Source: Hymenobacter busanensis
GTDB lineage: Bacteria; Bacteroidota; Bacteroidia; Cytophagales; Hymenobacteraceae
Length of the DNA stretch: 64,000 nt
Direction of reading: 5' to 3'
NCBI RefSeq assembly: GCF_008727865.1
Contig: NZ_VTWU01000002.1
Coordinates: 620,001-684,000 of the forward strand
Numbering within the stretch: position 1 is the first letter of the stretch; each line of letters starts with the position of its first letter. The notes under the pieces were generated by a model. The model saw nothing but the letters and a program-made list of their open reading frames with translations. It did no database searches and was not told the DNA's origin. Shown here piece by piece: positions 10,054 through 63,435 of the stretch. The position numbers and the translations under genes are program-made.

Positions 10054-13000
10054 CTACTGCGCCGCGGGCATTTCGCTGATGCCCAGCAGCAGGTGGCTGC
10101 TGGGGTGACCGTCGAGCTGAATGCTGCGGCCGTAGAAACGCAGGAGCTGGCGGCCCAGGCGCGGAAATTCGGCTTTCACGTCCAGGTTGTCGAAGGCTTG
10201 CTGGGTGCGGGCCAGCTCCTGGAGCTGGTCGGTGAGGCGGCCGTCTTTCCAGGCGCCGTCGCCGAGGTCGGCCAGGAGCTGGCCGCGGCCCTGGGCCGAG
10301 TCGATGCCGAACATATCGGCAAAGGCCTGGCTGAGCGACACCACGCGCAGCTCGGCGTCGAGCACCACCAGCGGCTCGCGCACGGCCTGCACCACGCTTT
10401 CGGCCATGGCGGTGCTTTGCTGGGTGCGCCGCTCCAGCTCTTTGAGGGCCGTAATGTCGGTGAAGGTGATGACGGCCCCGTTGATGTAGTTGTCGAGGGT
10501 GCGGTAGGGCAGAATGTGCATGTCGTACCACTCGCCGGTGGTGGTCTGGATGTTGGCGTGCGTGGGCACCAGGCGGTCGAGCACGCGGCGCACGTCGGGC
10601 TCCAGGTTTTCGTAGCGCAGCTTGGAGGCAAAGTGCGTGATGGGCCGGCCCACGTCGGTGGGCTGGAGCGGAATGATGCGCCCGACGGAGGCCGTGAAGC
10701 GCTTCACCACCATGTCGTTGTCGAGGAAGATGGTGGCAATGCCCGTGGCGTCGAGCAGGTTCTTCATGTCGTTGGCGGCCTGGCTCAGCTCCTCGGTTTT
10801 GCTTAGGTACTGCATGTTGAGGGTCATCAGCTCCTCGTTCAGGCTCTGCATCTCCTCTTTGTTGGTCATGGCCTCCTCGTTGGTGCTTTGCAGCTCCTCG
10901 TTGGCCGACTGCAGCTCTTCGTTGGTGCTCTTGAGCTCTTCCAGGCTCGACTCCATTTCCTCGATGGTGTTTTGCAGGCGCTGCTTGGTGTACTGCAGCT
11001 CCCGCTCCAGGGCTTCCACGGCGTTGTCGCGCAGCACGTCGGTTTTGCCGGCGCGGGGCCGGCGGCGCGGGGTGGGCACGTCTTCGAACACCACCAGCAA
11101 CAGGCCAGCCAGGGCCTCGGGCTGCGGCAGGTACTTCACCGTGAGGCGCACCAGCTCGTGGCCGCGGTCGGTGCGCAGCTTGGCGGCTTCCACTACCACG
11201 TCCTGCCGCTGCTGGGTGGCGCGGTGCACGGCCCCGCTGATTTCGAAGCGCAGCTCTTCGCGGGCCATTTCCAGCACATTCATGCCGCTCATGCCGGGAG
11301 CGGGCTCCAAGTATTTGCCGGTGCGGCCGTTCACGTACAGGATTTCGCCTTTCACATTTATCACCACCGAGGGCGGGGCGTAGGTGCCAAGCAGGAGTTT
11401 CTGCACCATCAGGGCGAAGGTGCTGTCCTTGCGGGCGGGGGTATGCATGCTAGCGGACGTAGTGGCCGCGGCGGCTTGCCGGGCGAGGGTAAAGGGGAAG
11501 TTGACGATGCGCGCCAGCGAGTAGGGCACGTTGTTGCGCTGGGAAATTTTCCACTTGATGTCGAGCGGGGTGAACAGCTCCTGAAAGCCGGTGAGGTTTT
11601 CGCTCGGCCCCAGAAACAGCAGCCCGTTGGGGTTGAGGGCGTAGTGAAACACCGGAATAAGGTTGCGCTGCAGCTCGCTGCTCAGATAAATGAGCAGGTT
11701 GCGGCACACCAGCAAATCGAGCTTGGTGAAAGGCGCGTCCTTGTTGAGGTTATGCACCGCAAACACCACCACGTCGCGCACTTCCTTCCGGATCTGGTAG
11801 CTGGCGTCGGCTTTGGTGAAGAAGCGCTGCAACCGCTCCGCGCTTACGTCGCCGGCTATGTTCTCGCTATAGAGGCCGTTGCGGGCAAAATCGACGCCCT
11901 CCTGGTTGATGTCGGTGGCGAAAAGCTGAATCTTGAGGTACTTGTTGGGCGCCACCTGGTCGAGGCACTCCTGCAGCACCATCACCAGCGAGTAGGCCTC
12001 TTCGCCGGTGGAGCAGCCGGGCGCCCACACCCGAATGGTGCTGTCGGCGGGCTTGCGCTGGAGCAGCGGCACCAGGTGCTGCTTGAGGCTGTCGTAGGCC
12101 TCCTGGTCGCGAAAGAACTTGGTGACGCCTATGAGCAGCTCTTTGAAGAGCTGCTCCACCTCCTGCGGGTTTTCCTGCAGGTAGCGCACGTAGTGGGTAA
12201 ATTCCTTGATCTGGTGGGAATTCATGCGCCGCTCGATGCGTCGGAACACGGTATTGCGCTTGTAGAAGCTAAAGTCGTGGCCGGTTTTGTTGCGGATGAG
12301 CATGAAGATCTTCTGTAGCGCGTGGGCCGGCCGGGTGGTGGAATCCGGGTCTTCCGGCTCGGGGCGGGCGGCCAGCAGCGGGCGGCGCACGTAGTCGAGC
12401 AGCACGGCGGGCATTTGCTCGGGCAGCAGCACCTGGTCCACAAACTCGGTGTTCAGGGCCGAGCGGGGCATGGAGTCGAAGGCGGCCGAGTCGGGCTCCT
12501 GCACCATCACCATCCCGAAGTTTTCCATCACCATTTTCAGCCCAATGGTGCCGTCGGAGCCGGCGCCGGAGAAGATGATGCACACGGCCCGCTCGCGGCT
12601 GTCTTTGGCCAGGCTCTGCAGGAAGTAGTCGATGGGCATGCGCCGGCCGCGGGGCTGCGTGGGCGGCAGCAGCAGCAGCGTGCCGTGCAGAATGCTCATG
12701 TCGCGGTCGGGCGGAATGCAGTAGACGTGGTTGGGCTTCACCTTCAGGCCGTCTTCGGCGCGCTGCACAGGCATGGGCGTAAAGCGGGCCAGCACGTCGG
12801 GCAGCATGTCTTTGCCGTCGGGGTCGAGGTGCATCACCACCACAAAGGCCAGGCCGCTGTCGGGGGGCATGTACTGAAAAAACCGCTCCAGGGCCTCCAG
12901 GCCGCCGGCCGAGGCGCACAACGCCACCACCGGGTGCCGCTCGCCCTGGTTTTCGAGCGGGCGAATCTCCACCACTTTGCCGTGCGGGAACTGCTCGTCG

Positions 13001-51355: not shown

Positions 51356-53728
51356 ATGCAACAATTTTGGCGCGCCGCCTCCCGCTGGGGGCTGCTGCTC
51401 ACCCTCGGTTTGGCTTCGCTGGTGCCCCGCTCCGCCGACGCCCAATCCAAAGTCGTTCTGCAAGGTTTCTGGTGGGACTACTGGAACTCCAACTACCCCA
51501 ACGGCTGGGCCAATTACCTGACCGAGCTGGCCCCGCGCCTAAAGGCAATGGGCGTAGATGCCGTCTGGATTCCCCCATCCATCAAAAACGGCAACCAAGG
51601 CAACGGCTATTCGCCCTTCGACCACTACGACCTCGGCGACAAGTACCAGAAGGGTTTTGTGGGCACGCGCCTGGGCACCAAAGACGAGCTACTGCGCATG
51701 GTGGCGGTGCTGCACGCCAACGGGATTGAGGTTGTACAGGACGTGGTATTGAACCACGCCGACGGTGCGGGCTCGAGCACCGGCGCGGGCGGCCAAGACC
51801 CCGGTGCCTGGGAAGACTACAGCACGAGCAAGTACAAAAACTTCCGCTACGTGAGCTACAACTCGCCGGCCACGGCGGAGGACGCCGCCAACTACCTCGC
51901 CCGCTCGGGCCGATGGTCGAAAAACTGGCAGAACTTCAACCCCAACCCCGGCAACAACTCGACCTCCGGCGACTGGAACGCGGTATACTTCGGGCCCGAC
52001 GTGAGCTACTATTCGGGCTCCTACGGTACCAGCTCCAACGCGACCTACAACCCCGCCCAGGGCGCCGACTACATGCGAAACGGCGCGCGCAACTGGCTGG
52101 TCTGGTACAAAAAACAAGTGGGCTTCGACGGGGTGCGCCTCGATGCCGTGAAGCACTTTCCAGACTTTGCTACTGAAGATTTCCTCTACAACCTGCAGAG
52201 CAACGCCGGCTGGGCCTCGGGCGGCGCTACCATGTTTGCGGTGGGCGAATGGGTAGGCGGCGGCAGTCAGCTCGACCAGTGGTGCACCAACGTGCAAAAC
52301 CGTTCGGGCACCTTCGATTTTGGGCTGCGCAACGGCCTCTACAGCATTGTCAGCGGCGGCGGCAACTTCGATATTGGCTCGTTGCCGGGCTACCAGCAGG
52401 GTACGCGCGTGGTTAATATCAACGGCACCTACGTGCACCGCACCGTGCCTTTTGTGAACAACCACGACACGTTCCGGCCCCAAACCAGCAGCACCGGCAA
52501 CTACACCGGCTGGAACACCGGCTCGGAGCTGGCCCCGCACATCGACCCGTTCGACCCGCGCCTCTCGGCCACCTACGCCGCCGCGCTGGCCATGGACGGC
52601 TCGCCGCAAATTTTCTTCGAAGACCTGTTCAACGTGGGCAGCACGGGCAAACGCTTTTCGCACCGCCCCACCAGCACGGTAGACCTACCCACGCGCTCGG
52701 ACCTCGAAAACCTCGTATGGTGCCACCAAAACCTGCACTTCAAAGACGGCGCTTACAAGGTGCGCTGGCAGGCCGCCGACCACTTGGTGATTGAGCGCAG
52801 CACCAAGGCCATCATCGGCATCAACGACAACTTCTCCACCTGGCAGAACAGCACCGTATCGTGCGATTTTGCGCCGGGCACCGTGCTCAAGGACTACTCG
52901 GGCGCCAACGGCACGGCCACTGTGACGGTGAGCGGCTCGCAGACGGTAGCCATTAACACCCCGCCTTGCAACGGCACGGCGGCCGGCGGCCGCCGCGGTT
53001 ACTCGGTGTGGGCGCCGGTGAACATCGGCACCAACTACGTGCGGCCGGCTCGCACTACTACTCAGGAATGGGAACTGGCCGATGACCTCGGCGACCGGGA
53101 CAGCCGCTCTTTGGGCCAGGGGGGGCAGTTGCCGGCTTCTTCCACGGCGTGGCGCACGGCAGGCCGCATCTACGTGGGCGCAAACAAGACCATCAGCTAC
53201 AACCTGTTTCCGTCCGACGGCACCAAGTCGCTGGTGGTGGCTTTGTTCAACGCGGCTGGCACGCAGGTCAGCAGCGCCACTGGCACCGGCACGCTCACCG
53301 GCAGCTATACTCCCACCGCCGACGGCTGGATTACGCTGAAAGCCCGCCAAAACAGCACCACCAACCCGGCTCAGAAGGCCTTCGTGAAAGCGACCTACAC
53401 CGCTCCGGCCGTCGTGAACACGGCTACGGCGGGCCGCACGGCGCTGGCCACGGCACCCACGCAACGGCTCGATGTACAAGCCGATTTGCAGCTGTACCCC
53501 AACCCTACGGCTTCGGACCGCTTCGACCTCACCGTCATCAGCAACGCGGAGCTGAAGGCCGCGGTGCAGGTGTTTGACCTCACGGGCCGCCTTGTGCACC
53601 AAGAGCCGCTGGCGCTGTACCCCGGCACCAACGAATTGCGCCTGAAGCCACGCACTCCCCTGGCAGCCGGCGTGTACCAGATAACGGTGCCCCAACTGCA
53701 CCTCACGCGCAAGCTGGTGCTGAAGTAA
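51356..53728 (+). CDS. Secreted alpha-amylase (GH13) with T9SS sorting domain
   Basis: A 790-residue secreted GH13 alpha-amylase that hydrolyses starch-like glucans. Signal peptide MQQFWRAASRWGLLLTLGL ends near SADAQ. The barrel shows the nucleophile Asp263 (GVRLDAVKHF), acid/base Glu298 (AVGEWVGG) and Asp371 (VNNHDTF), plus VVLNHADG in region I. A region of about residues 550-690 links the barrel to a C-terminal Por-type sorting domain (LYPNPTASDRF ... GVYQITVPQLHLTRKLVLK), which directs secretion through the type IX system. No SusC/SusD pair is next to it, so it is not a classic Sus locus. Start ATG 51356. Confidence 0.93.
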   Translation: MQQFWRAASRWGLLLTLGLASLVPRSADAQSKVVLQGFWWDYWNSNYPNGWANYLTELAPRLKAMGVDAVWIPPSIKNGNQGNGYSPFDHYDLGDKYQKGFVGTRLGTKDELLRMVAVLHANGIEVVQDVVLNHADGAGSSTGAGGQDPGAWEDYSTSKYKNFRYVSYNSPATAEDAANYLARSGRWSKNWQNFNPNPGNNSTSGDWNAVYFGPDVSYYSGSYGTSSNATYNPAQGADYMRNGARNWLVWYKKQVGFDGVRLDAVKHFPDFATEDFLYNLQSNAGWASGGATMFAVGEWVGGGSQLDQWCTNVQNRSGTFDFGLRNGLYSIVSGGGNFDIGSLPGYQQGTRVVNINGTYVHRTVPFVNNHDTFRPQTSSTGNYTGWNTGSELAPHIDPFDPRLSATYAAALAMDGSPQIFFEDLFNVGSTGKRFSHRPTSTVDLPTRSDLENLVWCHQNLHFKDGAYKVRWQAADHLVIERSTKAIIGINDNFSTWQNSTVSCDFAPGTVLKDYSGANGTATVTVSGSQTVAINTPPCNGTAAGGRRGYSVWAPVNIGTNYVRPARTTTQEWELADDLGDRDSRSLGQGGQLPASSTAWRTAGRIYVGANKTISYNLFPSDGTKSLVVALFNAAGTQVSSATGTGTLTGSYTPTADGWITLKARQNSTTNPAQKAFVKATYTAPAVVNTATAGRTALATAPTQRLDVQADLQLYPNPTASDRFDLTVISNAELKAAVQVFDLTGRLVHQEPLALYPGTNELRLKPRTPLAAGVYQITVPQLHLTRKLVLK

Positions 53729-53745
53729 CCGCCCCACATCAAACC

Positions 53746-53785
53746 GCGAAAAAGCCCCGTCTGAAACCAGGCGGGGCTTTTTCGC
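53746..53785. terminator. Bidirectional terminator after amylase
   Basis: Perfect 14-bp stem GCGAAAAAGCCCCG (53746-53759) with its complement at 53772-53785, 12-nt loop. Confidence 0.8.
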
Positions 53786-53860: not shown

Positions 53861-56176
53861 TCAGAAAAAGAGGCTGCCGTTTAGCTTCACGAAAAACGGC
53901 GTGCCCGGCGTGTAGTGTAGCTCCGACACCGACTCTTTTTCGCCTTGCAAGCGGCTTTCGGTGTCGAATTGAGCCTCGTTCCAGTCGGCGTTCAGCAGGT
54001 TCTCGATGCTGAAACCAACCTGGTAGCGGCGCTGGGTGTAGCTGGCTACGGCATCCATGATGAAGTAGCCGCGGGCGCGTACGGTATTGTCTTCGTTGGC
54101 GGGGCGGCTGTCGAGGTGGCGGTAGCGCAGGCTGGCGCTCAGGCCGCCGGGGCGCTTCACCGTCAGGCCGCCGATGCTGGTGAAAGAGGGCGCCAAAGGG
54201 ATGTAGTTCTGGCCTTTCGGTGCGCCCACGGCACGGCCGTGGTTCAGGTTCAGGTCGACGTCCGCGAAAAGCGAAGAACTGAGTTGGTGGCGCAGGCCGA
54301 GGTCGACGCCGAAGCGGCGGGTGCGGCCGGCACTTTCCACAACGGCTTCGTCACCCACGTACACCAGTTCGTCTTGCAGGTGCAGCGCCCACACCGCCAC
54401 ATTTACCACCAGGCTCGGCAAGGGCTTGAAGTTGCTGCCTACCTCGTAGCCGATGGCGCGGGGCAGCGCTTTGCCGGCGCCCATTACCACGGAGCGGGCG
54501 TCGTTGGAGTGGAAGCCAAAGCCCGAGCGCGCAAACAGCTGCACGGCCGGCGTGAGCTGGTAGTACAGATTCAGCTTGGGGCTGACGCGGGGCTTGCCGG
54601 CGCGGCCGGAAAGCGAGTCGTACCGGTCTTCGCGGAAGCGGAAATGGAAGTAGTCGGCCCGCAGCGCGGCGTTGACGGTGAAACGGTCGGCGACGGGCAG
54701 CGTGGCGTCGAACCAGGCGAAGACGCTCTGCTCCTGCACCCGGCCGCTCACGAGCGTATCGCGCACTGTGCGGCGGTAGGCGCGGCTCAGCGCCAGCGTC
54801 ACGTCGTCGAGGCGGGTACCGAGGCCGGAAGTGGTGCGCAGCGTGCGGCGGCCCAGGGCGATGTCGCGTTCGTAGGTGCCGCGGTAGCCAAGAAGGTTGC
54901 GCGCTTCGTTTTGCCGAATTTGGTCGCCTTGCACGCTGTCGGCCAAGAAGAAGGTAAAGTTGGAATACAGATTGAAGTGGTAGCGCGCGTAGTACACCTG
55001 CTGGGTGAGCACCGCGTTATGCGGCAAATCCACCGTTAGCTGGGCGTTGGCGTTGGTGCGGTCGGTGCTGCCGCCCTCGGTGTTGTCGAGGCTGCCGAAG
55101 CGCGTGATAAGGCCTCCGTGCACGGCGCGCTCCGGAATCTGGCCCGAAGCGTCCCAGGCAGAAGTGAAGTGCGAACCGGTAAGGGCCAGTGTAGCGCGGT
55201 CGGAAAGCTGCCCGGTGTACTTGGCCAGCCCGTTGAAGCGCTTGAAGTGCTGCGGGCTCTCGAAGTAGGAGTTGGTGAACATGTACTCACTGGCCACATA
55301 AGCACTTTCCGGCCGCTTGTGCCCGAAGAGGTGGCCGTTTTTGCCGGTCAAATCGACCATTAGCAAAGCCCGGCGCGTATCGAAACGCCCTACCTCAACC
55401 TTGGCCTGGCTCTGCTCCAGGCTGGTTTTGGTGGTGAACTCGCCCGCGCCCGACGTGGCAAAATCGCCGAAGCGCGCTGTGTACGGGCCTTTGTAGACGC
55501 GCAGCTGCTCGATGGTTTCGGGAATGACGAAGTGAAAATCGGCGTAGCCTTGGCCGTGCGCGTGGCTTACCATGTTCACCGGCACGCCGTCGAGGCTCAC
55601 AGCAAAGTCGGTGCCGTGGTCGGAATCGAAGCCGCGCAGGAAAATCTGCTCGGCTTTGCCGCCGCCGGCGTGCTGGGCAATGAAGAGGCCCGGTACCAAG
55701 CGTAGCAGGTCCTGCGCCGAATTTACGGGCCGTAGCTGCCGGTCGATGCCCGCAATAGCCGATACACTCTGGTTCAGGTCGCGCGGCTGGGCCACGGTTA
55801 CTTCGGCCAGCTGCAGCGCCACGGCCGCCACGGCGAAGTCGATGGTCTTGGTTTCGCCCGCAGCTAGCGTAACCGTTGTGGTGCGCGCGCGGTAGCCCAG
55901 CGCCGATGCGCGCAAGGTGTAGGTGCCGGCCGGCAGTCGGCTGATGCGAAACACACCCAGCGCATCGGCGCTGGTGCCATTAGAGCTTCCCACGAGCTGC
56001 ACGCTCATGCCGGGCAAGGGCCGGCCGGAAACGGAATCGGTGATGGTGCCGCGCAGCGTGGCGGTGGCGGGCTTGCCAGTTTGGGCGGCGGTAGAAAAGG
56101 CAAGCAGAAGCAAGCTGCCGAACGTCGCCAGCCAAGCCAGCGCGCCGGAGCCGGCGCGTAAACAAAAAGAATACAT
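53861..56176 (-). CDS. TonB-dependent receptor with carboxypeptidase-regulatory N-terminus
   Basis: A 771-residue outer-membrane receptor. Signal peptide ALAWLATFGSLLLLAFSTAAQ is followed by a CarboxypepD_reg-like domain (ATLRGTITDSVSGRPLPGMSVQL), a plug domain (VSAIAGIDRQLRPVNSAQDLLRLVPGLFI, then RGFDSDHGTDFAVSLDGVPVN) and a beta barrel that ends in aromatic FFVKLNGSLFF. There is no SusD partner. It is the last gene of a minus-strand cluster with a HupE/UreJ protein, TPR and DUF4331 protein. The cargo is unknown; the cluster hints at a metal or metal complex. ATG 56176 is preferred because it starts just before the signal peptide. Confidence 0.93.
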   Translation of the reverse strand: MYSFCLRAGSGALAWLATFGSLLLLAFSTAAQTGKPATATLRGTITDSVSGRPLPGMSVQLVGSSNGTSADALGVFRISRLPAGTYTLRASALGYRARTTTVTLAAGETKTIDFAVAAVALQLAEVTVAQPRDLNQSVSAIAGIDRQLRPVNSAQDLLRLVPGLFIAQHAGGGKAEQIFLRGFDSDHGTDFAVSLDGVPVNMVSHAHGQGYADFHFVIPETIEQLRVYKGPYTARFGDFATSGAGEFTTKTSLEQSQAKVEVGRFDTRRALLMVDLTGKNGHLFGHKRPESAYVASEYMFTNSYFESPQHFKRFNGLAKYTGQLSDRATLALTGSHFTSAWDASGQIPERAVHGGLITRFGSLDNTEGGSTDRTNANAQLTVDLPHNAVLTQQVYYARYHFNLYSNFTFFLADSVQGDQIRQNEARNLLGYRGTYERDIALGRRTLRTTSGLGTRLDDVTLALSRAYRRTVRDTLVSGRVQEQSVFAWFDATLPVADRFTVNAALRADYFHFRFREDRYDSLSGRAGKPRVSPKLNLYYQLTPAVQLFARSGFGFHSNDARSVVMGAGKALPRAIGYEVGSNFKPLPSLVVNVAVWALHLQDELVYVGDEAVVESAGRTRRFGVDLGLRHQLSSSLFADVDLNLNHGRAVGAPKGQNYIPLAPSFTSIGGLTVKRPGGLSASLRYRHLDSRPANEDNTVRARGYFIMDAVASYTQRRYQVGFSIENLLNADWNEAQFDTESRLQGEKESVSELHYTPGTPFFVKLNGSLFF

Positions 56177-56301
56177 ACCCGAGGCAATGCGGCGGCCAAT
56201 CGAAAAGATGGCGGCCGGTTCAAAGACAAAACCGGTTTTGGGTGCTCTGGGCACCACAAGAGCCACCGGGCCCGGAGGGCACGGGTGGGCCTACAGCGGA
56301 A

Positions 56302-56688
56302 TTATCCCTGGCGCGGGGGCAGATACCAATCGGCGGGAATACCAGCCACTAATGGAGGCCCAGTAACAGCATGCACGGTGCGGCCACTGCGCGCAACGGG
56401 CACCAAAAGGCTAGCAAAAGGGGCGGATGCACAATGCACATCAAGGCTTTTCACGGTCGTCAGCACGTGCTGCCACGAATCAAGGGGCACGCGTTTCTGC
56501 AGGGCCTGTTGCTCGCCGTTGCAGTGGTCGAAGCAGTCGAGGCGCAGGTAGTTGTCGCGCTGGCAGGTGTTGCTGTGCACGTAGGGCTTGGCGGGCGGAC
56601 GCAGCGGCTCGGGCCGGCCTACCAGGCCAGCGCCTACCACCAGCAGGTAGTAGGTGAGCAACAGCAGCACCGCGTACGTCCGAGCCAT
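56302..56688 (-). CDS. Small Cys/His-containing exported protein, function unknown
   Basis: A 128-residue protein. The N-terminus (YAVLLLLTYYLLVVGAGLVG) is a signal peptide or signal anchor. The mature part contains Cys in SNTCQRDNYLRLDCFDHCNGE and again in LDVHCASAP, and His residues nearby (CFDHC, WQHV, DVHC), so a metal site or disulfides are possible. I know no family for it. It lies 67 bp after the HupE/UreJ gene and about 125 bp before the TonB-dependent receptor on the same strand, and probably belongs to that locus. The reading frame is clean and the next genes are collinear, which supports it as real. Confidence 0.65.
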   Translation of the reverse strand: MARTYAVLLLLTYYLLVVGAGLVGRPEPLRPPAKPYVHSNTCQRDNYLRLDCFDHCNGEQQALQKRVPLDSWQHVLTTVKSLDVHCASAPFASLLVPVARSGRTVHAVTGPPLVAGIPADWYLPPRQG

Positions 56689-56754
56689 GTCGTTGTCAAT
56701 CGTTGAGTATTAGCGCCGTTGGCGCGGCGGCATCGGCTGAAAGTTGAATCCGGT

Positions 56755-57441
56755 TTACACGAAAAACACGCGTTCTACCGTCCACCATAGAGCCACGGCA
56801 CCAATCAGCAGCGACACGGGCACCACAATGCGCTGCTTGTACCAGGGCTTGTTGCCGAACCACTTGCCCACCAGCAGCCACGCGAGCAGGATGATGGTAA
56901 CCTGGCCCAATTCTACCCCCACGTTGAAGCTGATAAGCGACTCCATGAAAGCGTGTTTCGGCAGGCCGATATCGGCCAGCGCACCGGCGAAACCCAACCC
57001 GTGCAGCAAGCCGAAGCCAAACACCAAAGCCACCCGCCAGGGCTGCAGGCGGTCGGTAAGCAGGTTTTCGATGGCCACAAACAGGATAGACAGCGCAATG
57101 AGCGGCTCGACCACCGACGAAAGCGGCGTGACCAACCCTGCTGCGGCTAAACCCAGCGTGATGGAGTGCGCCACCGTGAAAGCCGTGGCCTGCCAGAGCA
57201 CCGGCTTCAGGCGCGGGTCTAGAATGAACAAGCCCAGCACGAACAGAATGTGGTCGAGGCCGAGCGGCAAGATGTGCGTGAAGCCGAGCTGCAGGTACGT
57301 CAGCACCACGTCGGTGCGGGAGAGGCGGCTGAGGTCGGTGTTGAGGGCATGGGCCTGCCCGACCGTGGGCCACAGCAGCAATGCCAGCGGAAACAGCCAC
57401 AGGCTTCGGCGGAGCAGAACCGGGGCGGACAAACGGAACAT
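56755..57441 (-). CDS. HupE/UreJ-family membrane protein
   Basis: A 228-residue inner-membrane protein of the HupE/UreJ_2 family. The family signature is visible: GFTHILPLGLDHILFVLGLF, then VAHSITLGLAAAG, then GFGLLHGLGFAGALADIGLP, giving six or so helices with conserved His residues. HupE proteins import nickel in some bacteria, and UreJ-like proteins may do the same, but no hydrogenase or urease gene is seen here. A signal-like N-terminus (LLRRSLWLFPLALLLWPTVGQAHA) suggests export of the loop. Start ATG 57441; a TTG at 57447 is in frame. It lies 15 bp after the TPR gene. Confidence 0.9.
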   Translation of the reverse strand: MFRLSAPVLLRRSLWLFPLALLLWPTVGQAHALNTDLSRLSRTDVVLTYLQLGFTHILPLGLDHILFVLGLFILDPRLKPVLWQATAFTVAHSITLGLAAAGLVTPLSSVVEPLIALSILFVAIENLLTDRLQPWRVALVFGFGLLHGLGFAGALADIGLPKHAFMESLISFNVGVELGQVTIILLAWLLVGKWFGNKPWYKQRIVVPVSLLIGAVALWWTVERVFFV

Positions 57442-57456
57442 CGGCAACAGGAAAAA

Positions 57457-58791
57457 TCAGCGAGCGGCCGTTAGCAACAGCGGCTGGTCGGCAGGATCGG
57501 TGAGCAGGTACGGATTCAGCGTTTTGGCTTGCTGCAGCAAGGCTTGCCCTTCGGCTACCTGCCCGCTGCGCAGCGCAATGCAGCCGGCGCGGTAGAGCAG
57601 CTGCGGGTTTTGGCTGCCGGTGCGGCGGGCCTGCCGCATGTACTGCTGGGCCTCCTTGTACTCACCGCGGCGGTAGTGCACCCACGCCATGGCTTCGCAC
57701 ACGTCGATGTTGGCCGGGCGGCGGTCGTACTCAATTTTGGCGTGTTGCAGGGCTTTGTCTAGCTCGTTCGTCTTCAGGTAGGCATAAGCCAGCTCTCGGT
57801 CGGAGTAATGGCCAAGGGCTTCATTTTCGTCGGCGGCGTTGGCATCGGCTGCCAACTCGTTTACCACGGCGCGGGCGGCTTGCTCGGCACGGCGCGGCTC
57901 GTTGTTCAGGCGGTAAGCCTCGGTCAGCTCTTCCATAAAAGCGTAGTCGCGCACCAGCAGGCGGGCTTGCGTCAGCTGCTTGATGGCGGCGGGGTAGTTG
58001 CCGCGGGCCAGGGACGTGCGGGCCAGACCGGCCAAGGCGTAGGCGTAGTTAGGCCGGGTGGCCATGGCCATTTGGTATTGCTCGTCGGCGCGGTTCAGGT
58101 CGCCGCTGTTTTCGTAGAGGCGGCCCAGCACCACGCGGCACCATTCGGTTTGCTCCAAACCGGGTACGCCGGCCTTCACGGCCATGTCCATGGCTTCTCG
58201 TGCACCGTTCAGGTCGCCGTGAATTTCGCGCAAGTACGACACCCGTGCGTAAGCCCGCAGATCGGGGCGCAATTGGTTCATGCGGTCGGCGGCTTTCACA
58301 GCCTCTGCATAATGCCCCAACTCCACGTAGGCGTCGCACATCAACCCTTGCACAAACGCGTTGGCGGGGTTGAGGTCGGCGGCTTTTTGAGCCACGGCCA
58401 AACCTTGCGAAAAATGGTGCTGCGAGAGGCAGATAACGGCTTTGGTGCACAGCGCCTCAAAGTTTTCGGGCTCCTGGGCCAGCACTTCATCGGCCAACTG
58501 CAGCGCAGCGGCGTCGTAGTACGGGTGGTTGCCGGTCACGCGGCCCTCCTGAATGTAGGCCTGGGCCAGCAGCAGGCGGGCCTGGTGGTCATCGGGGTTC
58601 TTGCGCAGGCGGGCTTGCAGGCCGCCCACGGCGTTGCGGGTGTTCAGCCACTCGCCGCCCAGGGCCATAGCGCCGTGGCGGGCTTGCAGCTTGGGAATGG
58701 GAGCTACGGGGTGGCGCAGCAGTAGTGCGCCGGCAGCCGCCACAAAACCCAGAATCAGGAAGGTGTAAAGAATGCGTCGGCCTGTAGTCAT
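57457..58791 (-). CDS. Membrane-anchored tetratricopeptide-repeat protein
   Basis: A 444-residue protein with one N-terminal transmembrane helix (RILYTFLILGFVAAAGALLL) and about eight to ten degenerate TPR units over residues 60-440, for example LLLAQAYIQEGRVTGNHPYY, CTKAVICLSQHHFSQGLAVAQKA and GRLYENSGDLNRADEQYQMA. TPR domains mediate protein contacts, so it may hold components of this locus together in the periplasm. It starts 107 bp after the DUF4331 gene and is 15 bp from the HupE/UreJ gene on the same strand. Start ATG 58791. Confidence 0.88.
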   Translation of the reverse strand: MTTGRRILYTFLILGFVAAAGALLLRHPVAPIPKLQARHGAMALGGEWLNTRNAVGGLQARLRKNPDDHQARLLLAQAYIQEGRVTGNHPYYDAAALQLADEVLAQEPENFEALCTKAVICLSQHHFSQGLAVAQKAADLNPANAFVQGLMCDAYVELGHYAEAVKAADRMNQLRPDLRAYARVSYLREIHGDLNGAREAMDMAVKAGVPGLEQTEWCRVVLGRLYENSGDLNRADEQYQMAMATRPNYAYALAGLARTSLARGNYPAAIKQLTQARLLVRDYAFMEELTEAYRLNNEPRRAEQAARAVVNELAADANAADENEALGHYSDRELAYAYLKTNELDKALQHAKIEYDRRPANIDVCEAMAWVHYRRGEYKEAQQYMRQARRTGSQNPQLLYRAGCIALRSGQVAEGQALLQQAKTLNPYLLTDPADQPLLLTAAR

Positions 58792-58898
58792 AAGCGGGAA
58801 GCAGGTCGTGGAAAGTGAGTGGGCTGGGCCGTATCCGGGAAACCCGTACGCCCGGCCACCTTGCGGCGGCCGGACGATTGGGACTCAGCAACGCGGGG

Positions 58899-61022
58899 CT
58901 ACTGATTGTTGTGGATCAGTTTCACCGACTGCAGCGTGGTGCTGCCGGTCGAGAGCGTGGCGACGTACATGCCAGCGGCCAAGCGGTTGGGCTGCCACTT
59001 GAACTCGTAGGCACCCGGCTTCACCACTTTGTCGCGCACCGGCGTGGCAATGAAGCGGCCGTTCAAATCGGTGATGGTGAGGGTTACGGGCATGCGTTGC
59101 GTAACCTGGTAGCTGAAGGTGGTTTGCTCCACAAACGGGTTCGGGTAGTTCTGCGCCATCGAAGCCAACTCGGGCTTCAGGTTCAGGCCGCCGTTCATGC
59201 TCCGCTGGGCCAGGGCCACGGCTTGCGCCTTGGTGCCGCTCCAGGGCGTTTGGGCATACGGGAAGGCCGCTTTCAGCGTGGTGTCGTTGGCCGTAATGCC
59301 GGCGTTGAACCCTACCACGCTCAGCAGCTGCGGCGTGACCGGGTTGGTGGCCGTGGCCGTGTAGTCGTCGTAGAACAGGCCGATAGCAGCCAATACAGCA
59401 CCGCCCACGGCTTGCAGCTCGATGCGCGTCACGTCGTCTTCCAGCCGGCGGCCGTTCGGGAAACCGTCCATGTTCGGAATGTTTTGCAGCGTGGCGTTGG
59501 CATTGAAGCGCGGGTCGGTCAGGCCGAGTACGGCAGCATAAAGCAAGCCCTCCGAGTTGAAGTCGGGCGAGTTGCGGGGCGTGGGCGGCACGGCCATATT
59601 CAGGCGCAGCATGTCGCCGCCGGGGTTGGCCGCCGTGGCGTTGGCCAGCAGGAAGTTGTTGATGAACGGCTTGCCGGCCGTGAGGGGGTTACGCGGCGTT
59701 TTGCCGGTGGCCAGCTGGTACGGAATCAGGTTCGGCACGCCGGTGTGGAAAATCGGCAGAATATCGACCGAACGCGGCTTGCCGGCGCGCAGCAGGTACG
59801 GACCGAAAGCATTGGCGGCCAGCGCCGTACCGTTCAGAGCCGCATTGCCAGCCAGGCCAGAAAGGCCGGCCGCACCGTTGCGGAAGTCGAAGCCGGCGGC
59901 GGGCAGGCCTGGGCTACCGGCCAACGACGCGGTTTGGATGCGCAGCGGTGCGAGGCCGAGCACGGAGGAACCGTAGTAGGTTTGGCCGTTGGCCGCGCCG
60001 GTGGCCATGTACAGGCCCAGTTCGGGGTTCGAGAGGTAGTCGTCGGTAGCAGCAGCTTCGGCGTAGGGCGTGGTGAAGTTCCACGCGTCTTTGGCTCCAA
60101 TGGGGTTGATTACCTCGTTGGTGAGCGGCATGCCCAGGCGCGACACCTGCACATAAGCACCCGTGTTCGACTGCGTGCCGTTGGTGTTCAGGGTACGAAT
60201 GGCCGGGCGGCTGGCCGAAGCCCATACCCCAATCACGAAATCGGAATCGAGGATGTTGGCGGCCTGCGCGGCCGTTTTGCCGTCTTTCTGCAGCGCCGAA
60301 ATAGGAATTTGCAACGCAATGGCGTGGGTATTTTTACGAGCCAGGCCGTCGCGGGCCGCACCGGGTGCCCGAATGCCACCGAGGTCGAAAATGCCGCCCA
60401 AATCAGCGAAGAACGGGTCGTCGACCGGGCCGCAGAATACTTTAGCGCCGTTGCCCAGCGTCTGAATAGCGCTAGTCATTAAGGCGTTGTATGAGCCGGC
60501 ATTGAGGCCCGCGGCGCCCGTGATGGAACGCGGCCCAACGTTAGGCGGCGGCACTACGCCATTGGTAATAACGGGCGTAAAAGCCCCACCAGCCGCACTG
60601 GCCTCCATGGTGTAAGTGGTCTTCAGGTTCTGCTGCCCCAGCCGGATGTTGAAAAAGGTAGTGGGGTCTTGGTTGGTGCGGGTGAAGGTGAAGCGGTAAG
60701 TAAAGTCGTCCCCAGTAGTTGTCGGCTTATTTTTGATGTGAATTTCGTACCGAATATTTTCCCCGAAGGTGTTGTAGTTCGGCCCGCCCTGCGGCAGCTC
60801 CAACGGAATGTAGTTGGCAATGATGGTGATGAAATCCGGGTTGTCGGGGCTCCGGAAGGCGTAGAGGTCGGTGTTGTCGGCCAGCGGGTCGTCGGCAATC
60901 AGCGGAGCCTCGCGGTGACTAGAAGCCTCCAACGTGCTGTGTTGGCCGCTCCAGGCCAGCACGCCCAAAAGCGTAGTGCACGACAAGCCCAGAAGCCAAA
61001 GCGGGCGGAAACGGTTTTCCAT
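58899..61022 (-). CDS. DUF4331 protein with T9SS sorting domain
   Basis: A 707-residue secreted protein. The signal peptide PLWLLGLSCTTLLGVLAW is followed by SSHREAPLIADDPLADNTDLYAF, the typical start of DUF4331, and by YRFTFTRTNQDPTTFFNIRL and further family segments up to about residue 610. The C-terminal ~85 residues (MAQNYPNPFVEQTTFSYQV ... GMYVATLSTGSTTLQSVKLI) are a type IX sorting domain, so the protein ends at the cell surface or outside. DUF4331 has no known function. It is the first gene of the minus-strand locus leading to the TonB-dependent receptor. ATG 61022. Confidence 0.9.
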   Translation of the reverse strand: MENRFRPLWLLGLSCTTLLGVLAWSGQHSTLEASSHREAPLIADDPLADNTDLYAFRSPDNPDFITIIANYIPLELPQGGPNYNTFGENIRYEIHIKNKPTTTGDDFTYRFTFTRTNQDPTTFFNIRLGQQNLKTTYTMEASAAGGAFTPVITNGVVPPPNVGPRSITGAAGLNAGSYNALMTSAIQTLGNGAKVFCGPVDDPFFADLGGIFDLGGIRAPGAARDGLARKNTHAIALQIPISALQKDGKTAAQAANILDSDFVIGVWASASRPAIRTLNTNGTQSNTGAYVQVSRLGMPLTNEVINPIGAKDAWNFTTPYAEAAATDDYLSNPELGLYMATGAANGQTYYGSSVLGLAPLRIQTASLAGSPGLPAAGFDFRNGAAGLSGLAGNAALNGTALAANAFGPYLLRAGKPRSVDILPIFHTGVPNLIPYQLATGKTPRNPLTAGKPFINNFLLANATAANPGGDMLRLNMAVPPTPRNSPDFNSEGLLYAAVLGLTDPRFNANATLQNIPNMDGFPNGRRLEDDVTRIELQAVGGAVLAAIGLFYDDYTATATNPVTPQLLSVVGFNAGITANDTTLKAAFPYAQTPWSGTKAQAVALAQRSMNGGLNLKPELASMAQNYPNPFVEQTTFSYQVTQRMPVTLTITDLNGRFIATPVRDKVVKPGAYEFKWQPNRLAAGMYVATLSTGSTTLQSVKLIHNNQ

Positions 61023-61572
61023 AGGTAAGCGGGTTTAGGGTTGGTGAGAAAGTGATGGTGACTTAGGAAAGCGAATACAAAGCCTCAATAGCGCACACCA
61101 GGCCGTTTGGCCCAGGGCATGGCTAGGCCCAAGCCGGGTTCGGCCGTATGCTGGAAGGAGTAAAAAACCGATGGTGCCCGGGGGAGGGCGCGGTTACGGG
61201 GAATTGGGGTACGCTGGCGCGCCGGAAGGTGTAAGAACCGGCGCGAGGGGAGCGGCAGCACGTGCTAGGGCTGCAGCGGAAGCGGCAAGGGAGCGTAGGG
61301 GAGAGAAACCGCCCAGGTGCAGGCGGCTTGCCCGAAGGTCAAGTGCGTGATGTACGTACGCTTCTGCCAAACAGATTGCCGAGTTCCATCTTTTTAAGAT
61401 TTATTTTCAACGAACCGGCTAAACCGTTGTCATATTGACGAAATAGACTTCCCCGGGATATTGTTTTAGAAAGGCAGCAATGATTGGCAGAAAAGCCGTT
61501 GCCGCCCCCGGCGGGCTTTTCGTCGTAGTTTTGCGCCCCCGCCGGGTCCACCCCTTTCTCCCCCCGCGACTT
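61023..61572. other. Divergent intergenic region between the DUF4331 locus and hscA
   Basis: No gene seen in about 550 bp. It must hold the promoters of both the DUF4331 locus (minus) and hscA (plus). It contains an inverted repeat CGCGCCGG (61218-61225) with CCGGCGCG (61238-61245), an AT-rich stretch around 61380-61460, and a -7-like box at 61526 near hscA. Confidence 0.55.
61526..61533 (+). promoter_or_regulatory. -7-like promoter box upstream of hscA
   Basis: TAGTTTTG fits TAnnTTTG exactly and lies 39 bp before the ATG at 61573. A TTG occurs 24 bp upstream of it, a little farther than usual for a -33 element. Confidence 0.45.
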
Positions 61573-63435
61573 ATGGCCAAAGTATCCATCAACTTGTCGA
61601 CCGGCTCGCTGCAGCAGGCCGAAATCATCGTCGGCATCGACTTGGGCACCACCAACTCGCTGGTGGCCTATATTCACCCTGAGCACCGCCAACCCGTAGC
61701 CATCAACGACCAGGGCCGCGGCACCATTGTGCCCTCGGTGGTGCACTTCCCGGCCGACGGCTCCTCCCCCATCGTGGGCAACGAAGCCCGCAACTACCTC
61801 GAAACCGCGCCCCAGAATACCATTTATTCGGTGAAGCGCCTGCTGGGCAAGTCCTACAAAGACCTCGGCCAGCACGCCGGCGAGCTGGGCTACAAGGTCA
61901 TCGACGACGACTCCGAGGGCCTCGTGAAGATTCGGGTGCAGGACCGTTTCTACTCGCCCATCGAGCTGTCGGGCGAGATTCTGAAGGAGCTGCGCGCCCG
62001 CGCCGAGCATGCGCTGAAAACGCCCGTCAACAAGGCCGTGATTACCGTGCCGGCTTACTTCAACGACTCGCAGCGCCAGGCCACCCGCGACGCCGGCCGC
62101 CTTGCCGGACTCGAAGTGCTGCGCATCGTGAACGAGCCCACGGCCGCTGCGCTGGCCTACGGCATCGGCCTGAGCCCCGACGACGAGAAAACTGTGGCCG
62201 TGTACGACCTCGGCGGCGGCACCTTCGACATCAGCATTCTACACCTGCACCAGGGCATTTTTGAAGTACTGAGCACCCACGGCGACACCTACCTCGGTGG
62301 CGACGACTTCGACCGCACCGTGGTCGACTACTGGGTAGCTCAGCACAGCCTGCAAGCCGAGGTAGCGGCCGATCCACAGCTAAAACAGCGCCTGCGCCTG
62401 CTGGCCGAACAAGCCAAGCGCCACCTCAGCCAAGCCGATACTTTCGGCGCGGCCCTCTCGCCCGAGGTCAATCTGACGCTTAACCGCGCCGAGTTCGACC
62501 ACCTCATTCGTCCGCTGGTGGAGCGCACCATGGCCTCGTGCCGCCAGGCCCTGGCCGATGCCAAGCTCGAGGCATCGGCGCTGGACGCGGTGCTGCTGGT
62601 GGGCGGCTCCACGCGCGTGCCGCTGGTGTACGATACCGTGTCGGCGTTTTTCGGGCAGCCGGCCAACAATTCGCTCAACCCCGACGAAGTAGTAGCTCTG
62701 GGCGCTGCCATTCAGGCCGACATCCTAGCCGGTAACCGCCGCGACATCCTGCTGCTCGACGTGACGCCGCTCACGCTGGGCATCGAGACGATGGGCGGAT
62801 TGCTGGACCCGATTATTCCGCGCAACTCCAAGATTCCGACCAAGGCCGGGCGTCAGTACACCACCTCCGTCGACGGGCAGGTGAACATGAAGATTTCGGT
62901 ATATCAGGGCGAGCGGGACCTGGTGCAGGAAAACCGCAAGCTGGGCGAATTTGACCTGCGCGGCATTCCGGCCATGCCCGCCGGCCTGCCCAAAATCGAC
63001 GTCAACTTTATTCTGAACGCCGACGGCATCCTGAAAGTGGAGGCGCTGGAGCTGCGCTCGGGCGTGCGGCAAAGCATCGAAATCAAGCCCCAATACGGCC
63101 TCACCGACGAGCAAGTGGAGCAGATGCTGATGGACTCGCTCACCCACGCCAAGCAAGACGTGGCCGCGCGCATGGTCATCGAGGCCCGCACCGCCGCCGA
63201 GCAGATGCTCTACCAAGTCGACCGGTTTCTGCAGACCAACGGCCAGCACCTCACCGAAGACGAAATCGGCCAGACGCGCCAGAAGGCCGAAGCCGTGCGC
63301 GCCACCCTCGGCTCGGGCGACAAAGACCTTATCTACCGCGCCGTGGATGAGTTGGAAGAGCTGACGCGCCCGTTTGCCGAGCGCGTGATGCAGATTTCTA
63401 TTCAGCAGGCCATGACGGGCAAGAAAATCATCTAG
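61573..63435 (+). CDS. hscA: Hsp70-type Fe-S cluster assembly chaperone HscA
   Basis: A 620-residue Hsp70 close in length to E. coli HscA (616) and clearly shorter than DnaK. The N-terminus ([14 protein letters not shown] before [17 protein letters not shown]) and [28 protein letters not shown] mark the ATPase. The substrate domain includes [14 protein letters not shown] and [18 protein letters not shown], as in HscA. HscA transfers Fe-S clusters from the IscU scaffold with the co-chaperone HscB. No isc gene is adjacent. The ATG at 61573 is chosen because earlier in-frame codons show no conserved sequence. Confidence 0.9.

Follow-up and report, generated by a model that had tools for sequence, protein, structure and literature searches.

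A DUF4331 protein and a TPR-repeat protein form the core of a gene module that is real and crosses phyla. The five-gene locus found in Hymenobacter busanensis is one lineage's version of this module. A role with metals is supported by the predicted N-terminal His positions, by NicO in the place of HupE, by DUF6702 in two loci and by published Cu/Ni binding of HupE/UreJ_2 proteins with an N-terminal His. With moderate confidence, we read the locus as a route for the capture and import of a transition metal (copper, nickel or cobalt).

The five genes of the window

The window, which is the whole stretch of 64,000 nucleotides that was analysed, carries five collinear open reading frames on its minus strand at 53861-61022. 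In order, they encode a DUF4331 protein, a TPR protein, a HupE/UreJ_2 membrane protein, a small Cys/His protein and a TonB-dependent receptor (D-P-H-S-T). The intergenic gaps are 107, 15, 66 and 124 bp, sizes that assume the ATG at 57441 as the start of HupE and the ATG at 56176 as the start of the receptor. The earlier note had described five minus-strand genes spaced by 15-125 bp, and both this layout and its list of parts are borne out, with Pfam and NCBIfam assigning DUF4331 with a T9SS tail, TPR, HupE/UreJ_2 and the TonB-dependent receptor.

Scans bearing on the operon question gave 12 terminator-like sites against 9.6 expected and 5 promoter-like sites against 1.4. By eye, a G+C-rich hairpin between A and T runs lies at 53744-53783, in the interval from the receptor stop to where the convergent gene ends; it is unlisted by the terminator scan, and its loop is longer than the scan permits. 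Rfam gave no match in the whole window at the gathering score, hence no sign of a cobalamin riboswitch, an idea that is left unsupported. An Hsp70-like gene (61480-63435) and an amylase-like gene (51356-53728), both read by eye, flank the locus. Flanking genes are kept beside it in same-family genomes (cluster C24 in L031-L033, C39 in L031-L032), so the site looks vertically inherited.

The DUF4331 protein (58899..61022, minus strand) has 707 aa, with a signal peptide by eye, the DUF4331 domain and a T9SS type A sorting tail. Its Pfam match to PF14224 spans the whole model (E 1.6e-126). The tail, at residues 626-703 (58914..59147, minus strand), scores 31.3 bits with TIGR04183 against a cut-off of 23, which identifies it as a sorting domain, and 24.5 with Por_Secre_tail of Pfam, under that model's cut-off of 27. 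The window genome holds this one DUF4331 match and two HupE_UreJ_2 matches. As for structure, an AlphaFold2 model of the DUF4331 domain built from 40 sequences was unusable (mean pLDDT 58, pTM 0.47), a Foldseek search with it returned nothing at E<=0.001, and a sequence search of the PDB found no convincing relative (best E 0.59).

The TPR-repeat protein (57457..58791, minus strand, 444 aa) has a hydrophobic N-terminus by eye and several TPR models above cut-off. It is followed by HupE (56755..57441, minus strand), where ATG 57441 is preferred over TTG 57447 and a signal peptide is seen by eye. HupE belongs to the family of PF13795 (159 bits, gathering cut-off 24.5) and also scores above the cut-off of PF04955 (30.6 against 23 bits). 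The segments HxxPxGxDH, AH and HGxGFA are kept across an alignment of 28 HupE sequences. The signal-peptide reading (VGQA HALN, cut after A) predicts that the mature protein begins with the His encoded at 57349..57351 (minus strand) and has 198 aa. In an AlphaFold2 model (mean pLDDT 87.5) it is all-helical, with the first longer helix from residue 12. This model had no match in the PDB at E<=0.001, and a PDB sequence search with HupE found no relative. The second HupE_UreJ_2 of the genome (G000:C1:115273-115761, L167) has neither signal peptide nor N-terminal His; by eye, it adjoins an M1-type-peptidase-like gene.

The small protein (56302..56688, minus strand) has 128 aa and a hydrophobic N-terminal segment, and neither Pfam nor NCBIfam matches it at E<=0.1. 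An alignment of 16 sequences keeps Y-x-H-S, a single C and C-F-x-x-C-N-G-x-Q. Its homologues are found only in loci of Hymenobacter and of the same family.

Lastly, the gene at 53861..56176 (minus strand; PF00593, PF07715, PF13620) encodes a receptor with a CarboxypepD_reg domain, whose start at ATG 56176 is likelier than at GTG 56266. With both plug (PF07715) and barrel (PF00593), it is a TonB-dependent receptor. The SusC/RagA model TIGR04056 gives it 53.2 bits, against the 368 required, and no SusD family of Pfam or NCBIfam was matched among the five locus proteins, in agreement with the earlier description of a receptor without SusD. Against TIGR01778, the model for copper receptors, it reaches 21.9 bits, where the cut-off is 472.

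Gene order in Bacteroidota

Two sets of loci were compared. The named set consists of the best 79 loci from 84,980 species genomes, where more exist, and is mostly Hymenobacter. The panel comprises 395 genomes sampled evenly from the phylum, 48 of them with DUF4331; its loci cover about 20 kb around 47 DUF4331 genes (less at contig ends), plus the window for its own genome.

The exact D-P-H-S-T order appears in 40 of the best 79 named loci, so the gene order that the earlier note had wished to see compared across Bacteroidota is not due to chance. D-P-H is present in 59/79. A further 12/79 show D-P-H-T without a recognisable homologue of the small protein, and in nine of these 12 another protein of about 125 aa, His-rich and with a hydrophobic start, fills the gap between HupE and receptor. 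It follows the pattern AHTF...H..TVH...G..H.H.E, and the two kinds of small protein have no detectable homology (hhalign probability 2.3%).

The panel reveals what is constant. In 43/48 loci, the DUF4331 gene has a TPR gene downstream of it, on its own strand and no more than 400 bp away; L045 was scored as lacking it, its neighbour being RsgA-type-GTPase-like by eye. The receptor lies within the stretch in 24/48 and HupE in 10/48. DUF4331 and HupE stand together in the 59 cases of D-P-H among the best named loci; in the panel, 38/48 loci show no HupE.

For the receptor, a match at E<=1e-60 was found in 30 of the 48 DUF4331 genomes, and 24 of the 30 have it inside the DUF4331 locus. A first look gave 16-110 receptor candidates per genome. 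Since 20 kb amounts to roughly 0.5% of a genome of this kind, chance alone would give fewer than one co-location. On the other side, 24/48 panel loci show no receptor. Where the match lies away from DUF4331 (6/30 genomes), the neighbourhoods give no single substrate clue. At one such place (L172), a His-rich small protein is again seen by eye upstream of the receptor homologue.

The claim of a fixed set of five genes did not survive, with receptor or HupE often missing from the locus and the Cys/His protein confined to Hymenobacter and same-family loci. One could go further and take the five genes as mere neighbours without a common function, and the absence of receptor and of HupE from many DUF4331 loci would fit this. 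The conserved adjacency and the co-location of the receptor contradict it, and we regard it as highly improbable.

The DUF4331 gene itself varies. In 25/48 panel loci it is broken up into two short genes in a row. Such split forms are seen in L053-L077, for example at L057:9336-10618 (217 + 184 aa), with the second product lipoprotein-like by eye; the two L057 genes map to the N- and C-terminal parts of the PF14224 model. In Hymenobacter there are also DUF4331 pairs in which one ORF has about 1,260-1,345 aa (L122, L127, L128, L132, L136, L140-L143, L145, L146, L148, L149 and L153). In four of them (L127, L143, L146, L149) this large ORF is downstream of a P-H-S-T set, and in at least four genomes, going by record title, it is a second locus.

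Other neighbours were noted in the panel stretches. An ECF sigma gene is present in 19/48 and an RskA-type anti-sigma gene in 17/48, up to 7.4 kb off. In L045, a ChrR-cupin anti-sigma-like gene (11062-11688, PF12973) and an ECF sigma gene stand ahead of DUF4331. A truncated-globin-like gene (L040:8084-8548, PF01152) is directly upstream of DUF4331 in L040, and L044 looks similar by eye. Finally, in L071, L072 and L075 the TPR gene is followed by genes for a small His-rich protein and for a TolC/adaptor/RND set whose members fall in shared protein clusters, with one extra gene in between in L075. The RND protein of L071 is over the CusA/CzcA cut-off, and this metal-efflux family also speaks for a link to metals.

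Plasmid loci and predicted N-termini

When a plasmid collection was searched by tblastn, 33 records had DUF4331; 20 of these were examined, 19 of them outside Bacteroidota. By annotation, Pfam and similarity, 13 of these 19 loci combine DUF4331 with a TPR-type and a permease gene. Seven have HupE_UreJ_2 (Pseudoalteromonas, Marinobacter, two Comamonadaceae, two Paraburkholderia and Lichenicola) and six have a NicO-family permease (five Streptomycetaceae and Nonomuraea). Six of the 13 permeases were compared with Pfam, and all six are over cut-off (HupE in L157, L158 and L160; NicO in L162, L174 and L175); the remaining seven were assigned from annotation or similarity. L160 and L182 have TPR proteins that stay under the TPR cut-offs of Pfam, and the L179 protein is counted as TPR for its similarity to the one in L160. 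The order in L178 is TPR-HupE-DUF4331, and L159 and L184 have DUF4331 and TPR only.

Thus NicO replaces HupE in the actinomycete DUF4331 clusters, and the exchange of HupE for a permease of a nickel/cobalt family points to a metal. In one of the Streptomycetaceae clusters, DUF4331 and TPR are separated by a class F sortase gene. In four Rhodobacterales loci (L163, L164, L180, L183) no TPR or permease gene was found near DUF4331, which there adjoins a type II secretion cluster and an A24/PulO-type prepilin peptidase gene. Both secretion to the outside, by the T9SS and, judging from the neighbourhoods, possibly by type II secretion or a sortase, and the pairing with a metal permease recur.

These loci also bear on a reading in which DUF4331 acts on something other than a metal, as an enzyme or structural surface protein with its His in the fold or active site, and in which a common stress regulon, not one route, unites HupE, NicO and the receptor. 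The protein is large, and the mean column identity over its mature domain is 60% (40 sequences), which exceeds the needs of a simple chelator. The Rhodobacterales proteins stand by type II secretion genes without a permease, and the Marinobacter DUF4331 is near phosphatase and metallophosphoesterase genes. We still consider a non-metal substrate unlikely, given that the pairing with two metal-permease families is repeated in three phyla.

The direction of transport is a separate matter. We infer uptake mainly because of the TonB-dependent receptor, since receptors of this class import. The alternative is export or buffering of excess metal, with DUF4331 sequestering it outside, HupE or NicO exporting it, and the receptor returning the chelator or serving another purpose. 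Several observations would suit this: the best NCBIfam match of the Streptomyces NicO is a nickel/cobalt efflux model (RcnA-type), below cut-off; the set after the L071 cluster is of the CusA/CzcA efflux type, and L072 and L075 hold members of its protein clusters; and the ECF sigma genes (19/48) with RskA-type (17/48) or ChrR-type anti-sigma genes, some of them several kb off, suggest a stress response. Against export stand the importing nature of TonB-dependent receptors in general and, furthermore, the view of the authors of PMC12537917, who read HupE/UreJ-2 proteins as importers. On balance, we judge export unlikely and keep to uptake.

The predicted mature N-termini offer a second line of evidence. 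In the window DUF4331 protein, the motif and the -3/-1 rule place Ser34-Ser35-His36 (codons at 60915..60923, minus strand) at the mature start, an ATCUN-like X-X-His. At a free N-terminus, X-X-His is the ATCUN motif for Cu(II)/Ni(II). X-X-His was found in 179/179 DUF4331 proteins scored (52 panel, 106 named, 21 plasmid). The -3/-1 rule holds in 175/178 (50/52 panel, 105/106 named, 20/20 plasmid), where the mature start was set two residues ahead of the conserved His and then checked by the rule, so that cleavage is itself a prediction. For long forms, the rule alone also permits cleavage at SS|H, which still leaves the His within the first three residues.

The residues before the His differ by form: long forms read SSH, or ASH in the case of two plasmid proteins, and split forms read ADH or GDH. 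Among the 111 named ORFs, 106 were scored (E<=1e-150); of the other five, four begin past the N-terminus and one has the motif. The panel count omits four long ORFs that were grouped by single linkage and have neither the motif nor a DUF4331 match. One of the 21 plasmid proteins was read by eye and one comes from a Bacteroidota plasmid. The term ATCUN is used in the abstract of PMC6121404.

HupE shows a comparable trend. A His after the signal peptide is predicted in 63/63 named HupE at E<1e-60, a lenient count in which the rule picks a His after Ala, Gly or Ser and L154 was read by eye. The same holds for 7/7 plasmid and 7/10 panel HupE. The three remaining panel proteins lack both signal peptide and His and begin directly in the membrane part. 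Two of their three loci (L042, L044) have a DUF6702 gene between TPR and HupE.

Candidate metal route and known systems

Searches for urease and [NiFe]-hydrogenase in the window genome detected neither, with positive controls; Ni-SOD, the third nickel enzyme searched, gave no match and its control was equally silent. Nickel is not favoured for this genome because it has no detectable urease or [NiFe]-hydrogenase. Across the 395 genomes, urease above 180 bits occurs in 12, comprising 5/48 with DUF4331 and 7/347 without (Fisher p 0.009, uncorrected for kinship), or 4/10 with HupE in the locus against 8/385 (p 9e-5, with three of the four from one genus). At the curated cut-off (23 genomes) the DUF4331 contrast is 5/48 to 18/347 (p 0.18) and the HupE-in-locus contrast gives p 0.0015, and taking every match at E<=0.001 (31) brings the DUF4331 contrast to p 0.56. 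The link between urease and DUF4331 is weak and hinges on the chosen bit threshold.

Copper is a reasonable alternative metal, given the ATCUN motif and the data on anglerases. The latter are HupE/UreJ-2 domains with an N-terminal His, reported in PMC12537917 (Nat Commun 2025) to bind Cu, and one of them also Ni; for a DUF6702 protein, the paper reports picomolar Ni binding. It mentions neither DUF4331 nor TPR, and was the only result for anglerase in the open-licence PMC literature. The same literature, which most subscription journals lie outside, yielded no paper on DUF4331 or PF14224, and none on HupE UreJ in Bacteroidetes. The Marinobacter HupE matched no PDB chain at E<=1, so that sequence gives no support for identity of its N-terminal domain with Ang-1. 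The DUF4331 family is without an assigned function, though it is strongly conserved and adjoins metal permeases in three phyla.

The proposed route would run as follows, each step being read from the sequences. The T9SS would secrete or surface-anchor the DUF4331 protein, whose mature Ser-Ser-His end, being ATCUN-like, may bind a metal ion. The TonB-dependent receptor would then import the metal, alone or in a small complex, into the periplasm. There, the membrane-anchored Cys/His protein (elsewhere the His-rich one) could hold it, and HupE, predicted to start with His when mature, may take the ion over the inner membrane, with the TPR protein as a putative scaffold. Behind the last step is the Cu/Ni binding of related HupE/UreJ-2 proteins, as reported in PMC12537917. 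The earlier proposal of a metal uptake route made of five parts is supported in part, the module being conserved and the metal role having gained evidence, and it loses the obligatory five-part set.

More tentatively, DUF4331 proteins may, over a wide range of bacteria, be secreted to catch metal with an ATCUN N-terminus, each feeding an inner-membrane permease that is paired with DUF6702 or that starts with His, be it HupE, an Ang-type HupE or NicO. This possible but doubtful generalisation would include a protein "metallophore" relay across Bacteroidota, Pseudomonadota and Actinomycetota. If the proposal is true, the DUF4331 family gains a function, the role of Bacteroidota HupE/UreJ_2 proteins with a predicted N-terminal His is hinted at, and metal acquisition has a route by way of a secreted protein.

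Among known systems is the HupE nickel permease. The window protein resembles it in scoring above cut-off with PF04955 and in the conserved His/Asp positions of its membrane part, but the partners differ and the window genome is without detectable urease or [NiFe]-hydrogenase. NicO (PF03824), absent from the window locus, takes the permease place after DUF4331 and TPR in the Streptomycetaceae and Nonomuraea clusters; it is of another protein family and has a predicted N-terminal His (HPLGN) in 4/6, those with a visible start. The HasA-HasR hemophore system and the TonB copper receptor OprC represent the plan of a secreted binding protein with an outer-membrane receptor. The locus would share this plan, with a putative secreted binder and a receptor; its receptor has no assignment to haem or, by TIGR01778, to copper.

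Finally, the anglerases Ang-1/Ang-2-HupE/UreJ-2, as described in PMC12537917, have a separate Ang domain of about 175 residues (a beta-sandwich), unlike the window HupE in its AlphaFold2 model. Cu/Ni binding is reported there for the anglerases. Both have the PF13795 domain, and for the window HupE a signal peptide and an N-terminal His like theirs are predicted.
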